64,000 nucleotides of DNA, from NCBI GenBank assembly GCA_037481875.1, contig JBBFKY010000002.1, forward strand, positions 291,264 through 355,263, written 5' to 3'. This DNA comes from Desulfosoma sp. Lineage in GTDB: Bacteria > Desulfobacterota > Syntrophobacteria > Syntrophobacterales > DSM-9756. A program made the position numbers and the translations under genes. The notes under the pieces were generated by a model. It made no database searches and was not told the origin of the DNA. It saw only the letters and a list, made by a program, of their open reading frames with translations. Shown here in pieces: positions 18,049 through 34,041 of this stretch (position 1 is the first letter of the stretch; each line of letters opens with the position of its first letter).

Positions 18049-18123
18049 GGCGGCATACCCAAGTGGTAAGGGAGCGGTCTGCAAAACCGTTATTCACCGG
18101 TTCGAATCCGGTTGCCGCCTCCA
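18049..18123 (+). tRNA. tRNA-Cys (GCA), canonical
   Basis: Standard cloverleaf of 75 nt: acceptor stem GGCGGCA pairing with TGCCGCC (18049-18055 with 18113-18119), anticodon loop TCTGCAAAA giving GCA, short variable loop, TTCGAAT T-loop, discriminator U73 (18120) and an encoded CCA. U73 plus GCA are the main identity elements for cysteinyl-tRNA synthetase. A second, very different tRNA with the same anticodon lies at 24387-24478. Confidence 0.97.
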
Positions 18124-24386: not shown

Positions 24387-24478
24387 GGGGGCAACGGCGC
24401 TGGGCGCCCCGCGGGCTGCAAACCCGTTGGCTCGGCCTCATAAGCCGGGAGGAGGTTCGATTCCCCTTGCCCCCTCCA
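24387..24478 (+). tRNA. tRNASec-mimicking cysteine tRNA (GCA), 8/4 type with bulge
   Basis: 92 nt. The 8-bp acceptor stem pairs GGGGGCAA (24387-24394) with TTGCCCCC (24467-24474). Discriminator is U (24475) and CCA is encoded (24476-24478). The D arm is compact: GGCGC/GCGCC (24396-24400 with 24404-24408) around a 3-nt loop. The anticodon arm (24411-24427) has loop CTGCAAA, anticodon GCA. A long variable arm pairs 24431-24436 with 24444-24449. The T arm has loop TTCGATT, and its stem is four G-C pairs (24451, 24452, 24454, 24455 with 24463-24466) with A24453 bulged. The 8-bp acceptor stem, long variable arm and compact D arm are selenocysteine-tRNA features; GCA and U73 are cysteine identity elements (tRNASec has G73). 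From memory, such 8/4 minor cysteine tRNAs were described in deltaproteobacteria (Mukai and co-workers, 2017). It leads an operon-like run ending in a SelB gene. Confidence 0.88.
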
Positions 24479-24535: not shown

Positions 24536-24997
24536 ATGGATCTCGCCGCCCCTTTCGCAAGCGTCGACCAAGAGCCCTTTCATTTGCAGCCATTTGAGCC
24601 GGTGATCGTGTGTTTCTGTTGTCAGTGGTGTTCCTACGCGGCGGCCGATCTGGCGGGAGCCATGCGGCTCAACTATCCCCCCAACATTCGCATTGTGCTG
24701 GTTCCCTGCACCGGGCGCATCGATGTGCTCCACCTTCTCAAAACACTGGAAGCCGGAGTGGATGGGGTGTTGGTTTCCGGTTGTCTTCCTGGAGAATGCC
24801 ATTACGTCAGCGGAAACCTCAAGGCTGCGAAACGAGTGGCACGGGCACGGCAGATTCTGGAAGAACTTGGAGAGAATCCTGAGCGGATCGGCATGGTGCA
24901 CAATTCGGCTTCCATGGGACCGCAATTGGCCCGTTGTTTCACAGAAATGGTCGAGCGGATCAAAAGACTCGGCCCCATTTTCCTCCGGAAGCAATAG
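24536..24997 (+). CDS. MvhD/VhuD-like hydrogenase delta-type iron-sulfur protein
   Basis: 153-aa member of the MvhD family, the [2Fe-2S] subunit that in methanogens passes electrons between hydrogenase and HdrA. The family core is clear: VIVCFCCQWCSYAAADLAG (about residues 21-39), RLNYPPNIRIV, VPCTGRID, GVLVSGCLPGECHY and an ERIGMVHNSASMG tail. GGAGG at 24526-24530 precedes the ATG. It follows the unusual tRNA by 57 bp and precedes an unknown gene and selB on the same strand; no HdrA or hydrogenase gene is adjacent. The family includes selenoproteins (archaeal VhuD), but here cysteine codons occupy all sites, mostly TGT, and there is no in-frame TGA. Confidence 0.85.
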   Translation: MDLAAPFASVDQEPFHLQPFEPVIVCFCCQWCSYAAADLAGAMRLNYPPNIRIVLVPCTGRIDVLHLLKTLEAGVDGVLVSGCLPGECHYVSGNLKAAKRVARARQILEELGENPERIGMVHNSASMGPQLARCFTEMVERIKRLGPIFLRKQ

Positions 24998-25037: not shown

Positions 25038-25706
25038 ATGATGGGCATCGTCGTCAACTTTAGTTCTTGGGTGCATCAAAAAGCGGCGGAGCGTGCGTAT
25101 CGGCTCTGGCGAAGTCTCTTCGGCGAAACTGTGTGTCTTCATGCCGGGACGAGCTGGAAGGACCTTCCCGATACCGTCCTACTCTTTTTCTGTCGGGAGT
25201 CAGCACGAAGCAAGCTCGCCCTCTACGACTTTCTTATGGGCGCTCTGGGCCTTGGCTATGGTTACGAGCTGGAGTCGCAGCCCCCCGAAGATTTGTCTCA
25301 TCTTCTCAATGCGTACTTTTATTTCTCGGATCAGGCCCGCTTTGAATGCTGCCGAAGAATCGAGTGGACAGAACCCATGGCTTCCGCCACGAGACCACTG
25401 ATTGAACAGGTCTTGGATCCATCCGTTTACGATTATCCAAACCTCATGCAGACGCCCGTCCCGACACCGCACCATCCTGCCCATGAAGCTTATCAGGCCG
25501 CTTCGGGATTGGAAAAAAACGTGCTCATGCGCCGCTGGCTGCCGGAGGCAGTCAAAAGGTTTGAAGGATTGGTCATAGCGGCGGATGCACAAGGAACGAG
25601 TCTGCCCAAAGGGGATTCCAAACATGACAAGGACTGTTACGATCGGCATTGCAGGCCATGTCGACCACGGCAAGACGACTCTGGTGCGCCTCTTAACAGG
25701 CGTTGA
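25038..25706 (+). CDS. Unrecognised protein in the tRNA-Cys*/SelB module
   Basis: I do not recognise this 222-aa protein. The start is ATGATG at 25038/25041 after AAAGGAG (25027-25033). It is soluble, with no signal peptide or membrane helix, and shows an alternating alpha/beta pattern: VVNFSSWVHQKAAERAYRLW, DTVLLFFCRESARSKLALYDF, then a helical middle with ARFECCRRIEWTEP and an LMRRWLPEAVKRFEGLVIAA helix. The reading frame runs 83 bp into selB, so its last 27 codons, Cys/Arg/Asp-rich, are read from the SelB start region in another frame. Such a long overlap is unusual and suggests translational coupling, or that the native end is different. Its only functional clue is its place between the MvhD-like gene and selB. 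Confidence 0.55.
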   Translation: MMGIVVNFSSWVHQKAAERAYRLWRSLFGETVCLHAGTSWKDLPDTVLLFFCRESARSKLALYDFLMGALGLGYGYELESQPPEDLSHLLNAYFYFSDQARFECCRRIEWTEPMASATRPLIEQVLDPSVYDYPNLMQTPVPTPHHPAHEAYQAASGLEKNVLMRRWLPEAVKRFEGLVIAADAQGTSLPKGDSKHDKDCYDRHCRPCRPRQDDSGAPLNRR

Positions 25707-27585
25707 TACAGACCGCATGCCCGAGGAGAAAAAGCGCGGTCTGAGTATCGAACCGGGTGTGGCTCCCCTTCGCCTTCCGTCCGGTGTGCTCCTATCGCTC
25801 ATGGATGTGCCGGGTCACAAGGATTACCTGCGCAATGCGGTTCGAGGATTAAGCTGTGTCGAAGGAGCCGTGCTTGTGGTGGCGGCTGACGACGGCGTTA
25901 TGGCTCAAACCAAAGACCACTTGGATATTTTGCAGTTGCTCGGTGCCCGAGCCGGTATGGTGGTTCTCTCCAAGTCTGATCGCGTGGATGAAGAAACCCT
26001 GGAATACGCTCGTCTAGAAATCGAAGAATTGATCGCAGGAACGTTTCTGCACCAAAGCCCAATCATTCCTTTTTCGGCCGTTGATGGTCAAGGCATCGCG
26101 GACATTTTAAATGAGCTCGAGCACTTATGCCAGAGGCTGAAAGAAACCGATTCCCCTGGACCTTGTCGACTCTGGATTGACCGTGTTCGCAACGTGCCTG
26201 GGCATGGCACGGTGGTGAGCGGCACCCTCATCTCCGGAGTGCTTCGGGAAAACGATCCTCTCACCCTTCTTCCCTCAGGAAAACTTACACGGGCTCGCTC
26301 CCTGGAATGGCACCATGTCAAGGTCCAGGAAGCCTTTACGGGGCAACGTGTGGGTGTCAATCTTCATCATCTCAGCCTGGATGAGGTCTCTCCTGGCATG
26401 CTTCTGGCCCAGCCTGGAACGGTTGACTGTGTTCCTTATGCGAACGTGGTCCTTCAACTGCTTCCCCATGCTCCTCGAGGACTCGTCCATCAGCAGAAAA
26501 TTCGCCTGCATATGGGAACAGCGTGTATCCAAGGAAGAGTGATCTTTCTGGAAACGGCCTCAGTCCCTCCCGGCTGCACCGTTATCGCTCAAATTCGGCT
26601 GGAACGCCCTCTTCCATGCCTGGCCGGGGATCGCTTCGTTCTCACCTTCCTCGATGATTACGTCGTGGCCGGTGGAGGTCGCATCTTAGAGCCTACAGGG
26701 GAAAAACTTCGGGGTGCCAAAGCGTCCCGCATGCTGCCATACCTTCAGTGCCTCGAACGCAGGGACCTGGAAAAGGCCCTGGAACACCTTTTTCTGAGAA
26801 ATCCTTACACCCCTCTTTCAGCTTCTCGAACGGCTCTGGCTACAGGGTTTCGTTTCGATGACACTGCACGGGTTTTGGAGCGCTGGGTTCAAGAGGATCA
26901 GCTCGTAAACATAGGGGAGCATCGCTACATTAGAAAAAAGGATTACACGGCTTTGCGTCGAAAATTTCATGAGGCTCTTGTGGATATTCTTTCATCAAAC
27001 CCGCTCAAAGAGTGGGTGACGGCAGAAGAATTGCGAGCCCGCGTGGATATGAAATTGGACCCGGACTTGACGCGACATCTCATTTCGGATCTGTGCGACC
27101 GGAATCTTGTCGAGCGGGGTGAAGGTGGATACAGACTTCCACACCGAGTGCGCCAATGGTCTCCGCGCCAAAAAGAAATGATGGAAGCCATTTTCAATCT
27201 TGTGCGCCGAGAAGGACTGAGCAGTTTTGCGGCAGGGACCATTGGTGATATGACGCAGGAACGATTTGATCGTTTAGAGATTCAAAGAATGTTGGATTAT
27301 CTTGCTGCCCAAAAGCTTTTGACCCGATTTCGAGACGGCCGTTATATGACTCGAGAAGCCTTTATGGAGGCGCAGAGGCGAGTCTGTTCGTGGATTCGGA
27401 CTAAAGGAGCCATACGCTTGAGCGACTGCTCGGCGGTATTAGGTTATGGTCGAAACAGGGCGATGGCCCTTTTGGAACATCTGGATGATATCGGCGTCAC
27501 CGTTCGCCGAGGCGACGAGCGTATTCTGGCGGAAGATTACAGCAAGGAGTTCTGGCGTATGGCAAAATCCGAAACCAAGATTTAG
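25624..27585 (+). CDS. selB: SelB-family selenocysteine-specific elongation factor, divergent
   Basis: SelB is an EF-Tu-like GTPase that delivers Sec-tRNASec to UGA codons marked by a SECIS hairpin. The 653-aa protein has G1 GHVDHGKT (11-18), switch I RGLSIEPG (38-45), G3 DVPGH (61-65), G4 SKSD (116-119), domain II IDRVRNVPGHGTVVSG (185-200), and four C-terminal winged helices; the last, with GYGRNRAMALLEHLDDIG and VRRGD, matches the SECIS-binding module of SelB. Compared with the consensus I remember (RGISIDLGFA, DVPGHERF, NMVAG, FTxKGFGTVVTG) several conserved spots differ: IEPGVA, GHKDY, NAVRG, RNVPGHGTVVSG. The start at 25624 gives the usual N-terminus. The tRNA-Cys* 1.2 kb upstream makes it a candidate carrier for that tRNA. 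It may be a paralog; selA, selD and a true selC are not in the window. Confidence 0.85.
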   Translation: MTRTVTIGIAGHVDHGKTTLVRLLTGVDTDRMPEEKKRGLSIEPGVAPLRLPSGVLLSLMDVPGHKDYLRNAVRGLSCVEGAVLVVAADDGVMAQTKDHLDILQLLGARAGMVVLSKSDRVDEETLEYARLEIEELIAGTFLHQSPIIPFSAVDGQGIADILNELEHLCQRLKETDSPGPCRLWIDRVRNVPGHGTVVSGTLISGVLRENDPLTLLPSGKLTRARSLEWHHVKVQEAFTGQRVGVNLHHLSLDEVSPGMLLAQPGTVDCVPYANVVLQLLPHAPRGLVHQQKIRLHMGTACIQGRVIFLETASVPPGCTVIAQIRLERPLPCLAGDRFVLTFLDDYVVAGGGRILEPTGEKLRGAKASRMLPYLQCLERRDLEKALEHLFLRNPYTPLSASRTALATGFRFDDTARVLERWVQEDQLVNIGEHRYIRKKDYTALRRKFHEALVDILSSNPLKEWVTAEELRARVDMKLDPDLTRHLISDLCDRNLVERGEGGYRLPHRVRQWSPRQKEMMEAIFNLVRREGLSSFAAGTIGDMTQERFDRLEIQRMLDYLAAQKLLTRFRDGRYMTREAFMEAQRRVCSWIRTKGAIRLSDCSAVLGYGRNRAMALLEHLDDIGVTVRRGDERILAEDYSKEFWRMAKSETKI

Positions 27586-33039: not shown

Positions 33040-34041
33040 TCATTGAGGAAGACGCAATTCGTAGGAAAAGTAAATCTTGATTCCCTTTTCTTCGGCAGCT
33101 TGTCTGACTTTAGGGGACGCCTGGTAGGTTACGAGAACCGGAAAAATTTCCATTCTCGAAATCTCCCGAACCTTCGCGATGGTTTTGAGGAACTCGTCCA
33201 CATCATGCTTCTTGAGCTGGGTCTTGGCTTCTCCGAGGATAGCCATGCGCCGGCCGTTTATAACGCCGGATCCCCATATATTCACTTCCATGTAATGATT
33301 GCGGGCTGTCTCCAAAAAGGTCCTCACCAACGGAGTTTCGATCTTCATGCCAAAGTCTCGTTTCAAAAGCTGCGGTAGGGCCCAGATGGCTTCATCTTCC
33401 AGACGATATCCCACCGTGTGGGACAAGCCCCCGAGCATTTCTCTGGTTTTTCGATGTTCGTCGGTGAGTGTGGCCAGCTTGATTTCCGTCTTCTTCTGCG
33501 CTTCCGCAAGCTCCTCAACTCGAGCTTCGGTACGTTTCTGAGCTTCCGCCAACTCCTCCAGTCGAGCTTCCGTGCGCTTTTGAGCTTCAGCTAGTTCTTC
33601 GACCCGGGCCTCGGTACGCTTTTGAGCCTCCGCGAGTTCTTGGACTCGAGCTTCAGTGCGCTTCTGAGCTTCGGCCAGTTCTTCGATGCGGGCCTCGGTA
33701 CGCTTTTGAGCTTCCGCCAACTCCTCTAGTCGAGCTTCGGTACGTTTCTGAGCTTCGGCTAGCTCTTCAACTCGGGCTTCCGTGCGCTTTTGAGCCTCCG
33801 CGAGTTCTTCGACTCGAGCTTCAGTACGTTTCTGAGCTTCGGCCAGTTCTTCGACTTTTTCAACAAGCCGGTTGAGGGAATGATCGGTGCGGACTTGAGC
33901 CTGGGCCAGTTCTCGAACCACCTGCTTAAGATCTTCGAACTCCTCGCGGGCAACCCGGATTTCTCGCACCCGGTCGTCTACGATGGCAAGGATCGTTTTA
34001 TAAAGTTCTGGTGTGAGTCCCTGTTCCAGGCTGTGGGGCAT
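33040..34041 (-). CDS. Coiled-coil repeat protein with PD-(D/E)XK-like tail (DUF3782 type)
   Basis: 333 aa in three parts: an N-terminal helical region (1-62), nine tandem 14-residue units of the form VEELAEAQKRTEAR (63-188, two heptads each, so a straight coiled coil), and a C-terminal alpha/beta domain (about 205-333) with the nuclease-like segment RRMAILGEAKTQLKKHD. In that domain the expected acidic residue of the PD-(D/E)XK fold may be Asn (EVNIWG), so activity is uncertain. Families like this occur scattered in archaea, cyanobacteria and deltaproteobacteria with variable repeat numbers. No neighbour suggests a role, and it stands alone between two spacers. Confidence 0.72.
   Translation of the reverse strand: MPHSLEQGLTPELYKTILAIVDDRVREIRVAREEFEDLKQVVRELAQAQVRTDHSLNRLVEKVEELAEAQKRTEARVEELAEAQKRTEARVEELAEAQKRTEARLEELAEAQKRTEARIEELAEAQKRTEARVQELAEAQKRTEARVEELAEAQKRTEARLEELAEAQKRTEARVEELAEAQKKTEIKLATLTDEHRKTREMLGGLSHTVGYRLEDEAIWALPQLLKRDFGMKIETPLVRTFLETARNHYMEVNIWGSGVINGRRMAILGEAKTQLKKHDVDEFLKTIAKVREISRMEIFPVLVTYQASPKVRQAAEEKGIKIYFSYELRLPQ
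33478..33855 (-). repeat. Nine 42-bp coding repeats
   Basis: Nine tandem 42-bp units, each encoding a 14-aa double heptad ((V/L/I)(E/Q)ELAEAQK(R/K)TE(A/I)(R/K)). Units differ mainly at synonymous positions (CTCGAGCTTC, CCGGGCCTC, GCGGGCCTC variants), so the array is not freshly duplicated but the protein repeat is conserved. Confidence 0.9.

Follow-up and report, generated by a model that had tools for sequence, protein, structure and literature searches.

The window, by which we mean the whole 64,000-nucleotide stretch of Desulfosoma sp. DNA analyzed here, contains an operon headed by a tRNA gene of 92 nt (positions 24387–24478, forward strand). ARAGORN identifies this gene as tRNA-Cys(gca) with exactly these ends. 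It is also the single match in the window to the Rfam family for bacterial tRNA-Sec (RF01852; 24386–24475), scoring 54.4 bits where the gathering threshold is 47, a covariance-model result that bears out the tRNA-Sec-like fold proposed in an earlier note on this DNA. The structural features named in that note can all be read directly from the sequence. The acceptor stem comprises 8 bp (GGGGGCAA/UUGCCCCC, with 8/8 positions paired), the compact D arm has 5 bp and a 3-nt loop, and the long variable arm has 6 bp. In the T arm, GG-A-GG pairs with CCCC to give 4 bp with one bulged A at 24453, as expected for a modified 8/4 tRNA. The anticodon GCA occupies 24418–24420, and the discriminator base U73 at 24475 is followed by an encoded CCA (24476–24478). 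An ordinary tRNA-Cys(GCA), which the note had placed 6.3 kb away, is located by ARAGORN at 18049–18123. Searches of the genome revealed no further copy of the 92-nt gene, which we refer to as selC*.

The fold is supported by comparative data. In an alignment of 32 distinct selC* relatives, 98.0% of cells agree with the cloverleaf pairing, compared with 44–58% when the pairing partners are slid, and double-sided changes occur in 15 of 30 pairs, a number matched by none of 500 shuffles. All four T-stem pairs are invariant across the alignment and were partly imposed by the pattern used for retrieval, and for these reasons they provide no evidence of covariation. Folding energy alone is unremarkable (z of −0.58). 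A covariance model of selC* scores the window tRNA, which is itself among the sequences used to build the model, at 112.4 bits, versus 37.9 bits for the tRNA-Sec of the same genome. Jointly with the explanation developed below as a whole, we consider it probable that selC* encodes a functional tRNA-Cys.

Three protein-coding genes follow the tRNA on the same strand, giving the order selC*-FlpD-gene 3-selB*. The first encodes an FlpD/MvhD protein (24536–24997; PF02662, 166.5 bits). Gene 3 (25038–25706) encodes a small, conserved protein for which an all-helical structure is predicted with a pLDDT of 92, and which matches nothing in Pfam or among PDB folds. Its reading frame overlaps by 83 bases with selB* (25624–27585), which starts 1.1 kb downstream of selC* and encodes another SelB, the genome's second (308 bits with TIGR00475, cut-off 242). 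No CysRS* lies beside the window operon. The operon order is kept in the same genus, in Desulfacinum, a second genus of the family, and in one genome of another family (G017). In another member of the same family, G003, the tRNA has UCA and A73, selB* lies directly downstream, and the pair of FlpD and gene 3 is inverted and located upstream. We considered gene 3 as a selC*-specific partner and rejected it, because 18 of the 99 genomes sampled from the phylum encode a member of its family; neither FlpD nor SelB was found next to the other gene-3 copies examined. Elsewhere in the window, positions 33040–34041 of the reverse strand encode a protein in which many near-identical copies of EELAEAQKRTEAR make up a long, coiled-coil-like repeat.

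The structural claims of the earlier note thus stand, but it left unmentioned the second SelB and the presence of a true tRNA-Sec, SelA and an ordinary SelB. The genome (3.4 Mb in 19 contigs, 99.6% complete) encodes a true tRNA-Sec(UCA) at C1:565137–565231 (74.5 bits), SelA at C3:314320 and an ordinary SelB at C2:106378. This SelB shares merely 33% identity with the window SelB*, and therefore the two proteins need not recognize the same SECIS. There is one clear gene for CysRS, and a weaker second match (154 bits) lies within a 784-aa frame.

The window SelB* has a complete architecture of GTPase and winged helices, including the SelB-wing_3 domain. Its P-loop and switch I are normal and its G domain is intact. 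A structure model (TM of 0.79 to E. coli SelB) predicts a SelB fold with EF-Tu-like domains, and the final winged helix is similar to its E. coli counterpart, so that SelB* appears to keep the SECIS-reading C-terminal domain. In a quick maximum-likelihood tree, the window protein belongs to a clade of 34 SelB* proteins (SH-aLRT of 100) that is separate from ordinary SelB proteins and from seven other, ordinary-looking SelB proteins linked to selC*. These last occur at loci L045, L059, L062, L085, L088, L096 and L108, where selC*(GCA) is followed by a SelB that has an ordinary pocket and falls outside the SelB* clade. One SelB may serve both tRNAs in these cases.

The amino-acid pocket of EF-Tu is formed by H67, E216, D217, F219, T229 and N274 (PMC6386890). 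We mapped these sites onto SelB by sequence alignment, which the structure model supports at the level of the fold. The residues F-D-R-F-T-R are found in 9/9 ordinary SelB proteins and 7/7 of the other selC*-linked ones, a small comparison set of 16 sequences, and in 0/34 SelB* proteins. All 34 SelB* proteins have V or I at the H67 site, D at the E216 site and R at the N274 site. The D217 site is more variable (Q in 20, R in 10, G in 3 and H in 1), as is the F219 site, which is R in 18, K in 8, W in 4, I in 2, H in 1 and T in 1, and never F. The T229 site is S in 31 proteins, T in 2 and N in 1. The window protein reads V-D-R-R-S-R. In Aquifex SelB, the T229 site is occupied by R and the D217 site by S. 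We found no earlier description of the SelB* pocket signature in the literature compared, a set that stops short of the primary 2017 and 2018 papers. Judged from these sequences, the amino acid carried by SelB* is likely to have changed, with SECIS reading retained.

Among 60 relatives, genomes with selC* carry at least two SelB proteins and genomes without it carry one, the exceptions being G037 and G057, the latter a genome that is 66% complete. Both selC* and selB* are missing from G005, a member of the same family, and among the relatives the two genes are kept or lost almost together. G037 (L099/L042) has a selC*(GCA) with no FlpD or SelB* nearby, and no second SelB is encoded in this genome; the tRNA seems to be left without its former partner.

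A pattern scan of named genomes returned 68 loci, 64 of which are real selC* genes, for a total of 65 genes with that of the window. Of these, 18 have the anticodon GCA and 47 have UCA, counts that would be biased if taken from the scan alone, because its pattern required C35 and A36 as well as part of the T stem. A covariance-model search without any anticodon demand yields exclusively GCA or UCA where an anticodon is called. Of 198 genomes sampled from the phylum, this search places selC* in about 22, and the scores are widely separated, at 87 bits or above versus 62 bits or below. U73 is present in 62 of the 65 genes and A73 in 3, and the anticodon has changed at least twice on the SelB tree. 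Where at least 300 nt of downstream sequence is available (58 loci), a SelB gene follows selC* on the same strand in 53 cases, and within 300 nt in 47. A tRNA-Sec match of at least 65 bits is found in 38 of 50 selC* genomes, with the anticodon UCA in 30/30 examined. The 12 genomes without such a match are mostly MAGs, and SelA scores above its cut-off in 9 of them.

Several members of the family depart from the general arrangement. At two loci, L059 (Candidatus Geothermocultor) and L094, selC*(GCA) lies ahead of selB in records labeled Actinomycetota, although MAG labels may be wrong. A review's list of phyla with selC* does not include Actinomycetota (PMC7609411), and we found no description of selC* in records with this label within the compared literature, to which the primary 2017 and 2018 papers do not belong. 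Desulfobacteraceae Eth-SRB1 has an identical pair of selC* genes (L072/L097; G107 C40:941929 and 944255) 2.3 kb apart with a SelB* frame between them. In L058, L064 and L071, selC* has the anticodon UCA, and the Cys discriminator U73 is replaced by A73. The SelB* proteins of L064 and L071 have altered P-loops (HVAHGKT and HAGHGKT) and lack a normal switch I motif. These A73 members with altered SelB* reflect either decay or a different use.

The tRNA kind to which selC* belongs was reportedly described in 2017–2018, and we take it to be the one later called ‘tRNAReC’. Vargas-Rodriguez et al. are said to have found in 2018 that the tRNAReC of Desulfotomaculum nigrificans is charged by CysRS, is bound by SelB and recodes UGA in E. 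coli. Like the window tRNA, it is a tRNA-Sec-like tRNA-Cys from a genome that also has tRNA-Sec. It was tested in E. coli, whereas the window tRNA is known from its sequence and has a SelB* of its own.

The published selC* tRNA-Cys is characterized by a modified 8/4 fold, an A51a bulge, U73 and either GCA or UCA, and a second selB (selB*) lies downstream of selC* in Syntrophobacterales and Desulfobacterales (PMC7609411). The window combines the bulged-A 8/4 fold, U73 with GCA, a tRNA-Sec elsewhere in the genome and a downstream selB*. Its tRNA is a member of this described group and not a new kind, and the earlier note's assignment to the known minor Cys tRNAs concerned the same object. As summarized in the review, the system of Mukai et al. 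(2017) shares with the window the 8/4 fold, the bulged A, U73, GCA, the Sec-like arms and the downstream second selB, and the review names Syntrophobacterales; the nearest named relatives of this genome are Desulfosoma and Desulfacinum (Syntrophobacteraceae). In comparison with that summary, the window has FlpD and gene 3 between selC* and selB*, and its operon is without CysRS*, the genome having one clear CysRS. Cysteine insertion at Sec UGA codons is cited in passages of two further papers (PMC11415595, PMC8762117).

Bacterial tRNA-Sec resembles the window tRNA in its long acceptor and variable arms, and the window tRNA scores above the RF01852 cut-off. However, the window tRNA has U73 instead of G73, which is a SerRS identity element and essential for tRNA-Sec (PMC5330540), and GCA instead of the majority UCA. 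Its acceptor branch has 12 bp compared with 13 bp in tRNA-Sec, and its D arm lacks the 6-bp stem and 4-nt loop that SelA recognizes. Allo-tRNAs (8/4 and 9/3) likewise have a 12-bp acceptor branch and a long variable arm, but they have SerRS identity with G73 (PMC7609411), as opposed to U73 and a Cys anticodon in the window tRNA. SelB* for its part passes the TIGR00475 cut-off and has a predicted fold similar to that of E. coli SelB, and differs from SelB in its pocket.

The operon FlpD offers a hint as to which codons might be read. It has Cys (UGU) where its closest paralog, C6:144456, has UGA (CCQWC versus CCMYU). This paralog (L179, C6:144456–144863) is, at 57%, the most similar to the operon protein among the 14 FlpD matches in the genome. 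A compact hairpin of 7 bp with a GGC loop lies 13 nt past the UGA, making this codon a likely target and the hairpin a candidate SECIS. Cysteine at this site would be plausible chemistry, because the operon FlpD has Cys there. The genome contains a second FlpD paralog with an in-frame UGA (L182, C12:24060–24476). No conserved SECIS-like hairpin was found after the UGU of the window FlpD and its relatives. We also looked for dedicated targets among UGA genes of the operon and the rest of the window; no candidate is convincing, and the operon itself is without a UGA gene. FlpD genes near other selC* loci were rejected as targets, since the covered sites carry Cys codons. The proximity of FlpD in other lineages may be due to chance, because FlpD is common, as the number of matches here illustrates.

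We regard the following explanation as probable. CysRS would charge the selC* tRNA, and SelB* would deliver cysteine to UGA codons marked by a SECIS, with a probable role as backup during selenium shortage. The genome's CysRS could recognize the tRNA by its U73, its G1:C72 pair and its GCA anticodon. The Cys-tRNA would then be carried by the SelB* of the same operon, because an 8-bp acceptor stem should make a poor ligand for EF-Tu and a good one for SelB. Since its SECIS-reading C-terminal domain appears to be kept, SelB* would bring cysteine to those UGA codons that are followed by a SECIS hairpin and are also served by tRNA-Sec. The product would be a selenoprotein with cysteine in place of selenocysteine, of greatest use under selenium scarcity. 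The GCA anticodon may be retained because CysRS needs it. G34 of GCA has no normal pairing with the third base of UGA, and thus UGA reading would demand a tolerated mismatch; that a GCA member might read UGA is suggested by what the 2018 work reportedly found. Some lineages with UCA and A1 instead have a second CysRS beside selB*, as in four loci downstream of selC* here, all of them UCA members with A1 (see also PMC7609411).

A farther-reaching reading is possible, although we incline to doubt it. SelB* might be a separate elongation factor specialized for cysteine, not a spare SelB, and together with selC* it might constitute a second, parallel line of UGA decoding, in a cell where UGA is read as Sec as well. 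On the same tentative footing, a marked UGA might have two meanings, set by selenium status or by the SECIS bound by each SelB, and SelB* might be marked by the pocket change seen throughout the clade (V/I for F; R/K/W or another residue for F; S for T).

Delivery by SelB* to UGU or UGC codons with a SECIS-like hairpin, which would secure or regulate cysteine at particular sites, seems improbable to us. GCA does pair with UGC and UGU, and the operon FlpD has UGU at its paralog's UGA site. However, no compact hairpin like that of the UGA paralog is present in the window FlpD or its relatives, the ordinary tRNA-Cys already reads Cys codons, and UCA members point to UGA in close relatives, including G003 of the same family (with A73). 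An equally low probability attaches to a role as a regulatory RNA or sink, in which the tRNA or SelB* occupies the SECIS or SelB and tunes selenoprotein synthesis, with cysteine insertion being secondary. The location of the tRNA upstream of selB* in the operon would suit this role, and regulation of the selB/selC balance was proposed by Mukai for a different arrangement (PMC8124441). Nonetheless, the full tRNA is conserved, including CCA, anticodon and identity bases, the G domain of the window SelB* is intact, and a pure sink would have no need of the second CysRS found in those four loci, which are of the Desulfobacterota type.

We consider it highly improbable that selC* is an ordinary minor tRNA-Cys that works with EF-Tu in general decoding and whose odd shape is meaningless. 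GCA and U73 are indeed the main CysRS identity elements, but the genome has an ordinary tRNA-Cys, the 8-bp acceptor weakens EF-Tu binding and favors SelB (PMC7609411), selC* is linked to selB* and lost with it, and covariation across the family preserves the Sec-like shape. Still less weight falls on a decaying relic of a past UGA-Cys system. The orphaned tRNA of G037 (L099) and the altered P-loop and switch region in SelB* of the UCA/A73 members would fit such decay, yet in the window both the tRNA and SelB* are intact, SelB* has a normal P-loop and switch I, and the operon persists in different genera.

Cysteine delivery by SelB* to SECIS-marked UGA codons consequently remains our preferred explanation, and the pocket signature makes the role of selC* and SelB* directly testable. 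SelB* could also provide a ready-made factor for selenoprotein engineering. If SelB* is cysteine-specific, bacteria would have evolved a dedicated route to the ribosome, the third after those of EF-Tu and SelB, and in a single cell one codon would have two regulated meanings.
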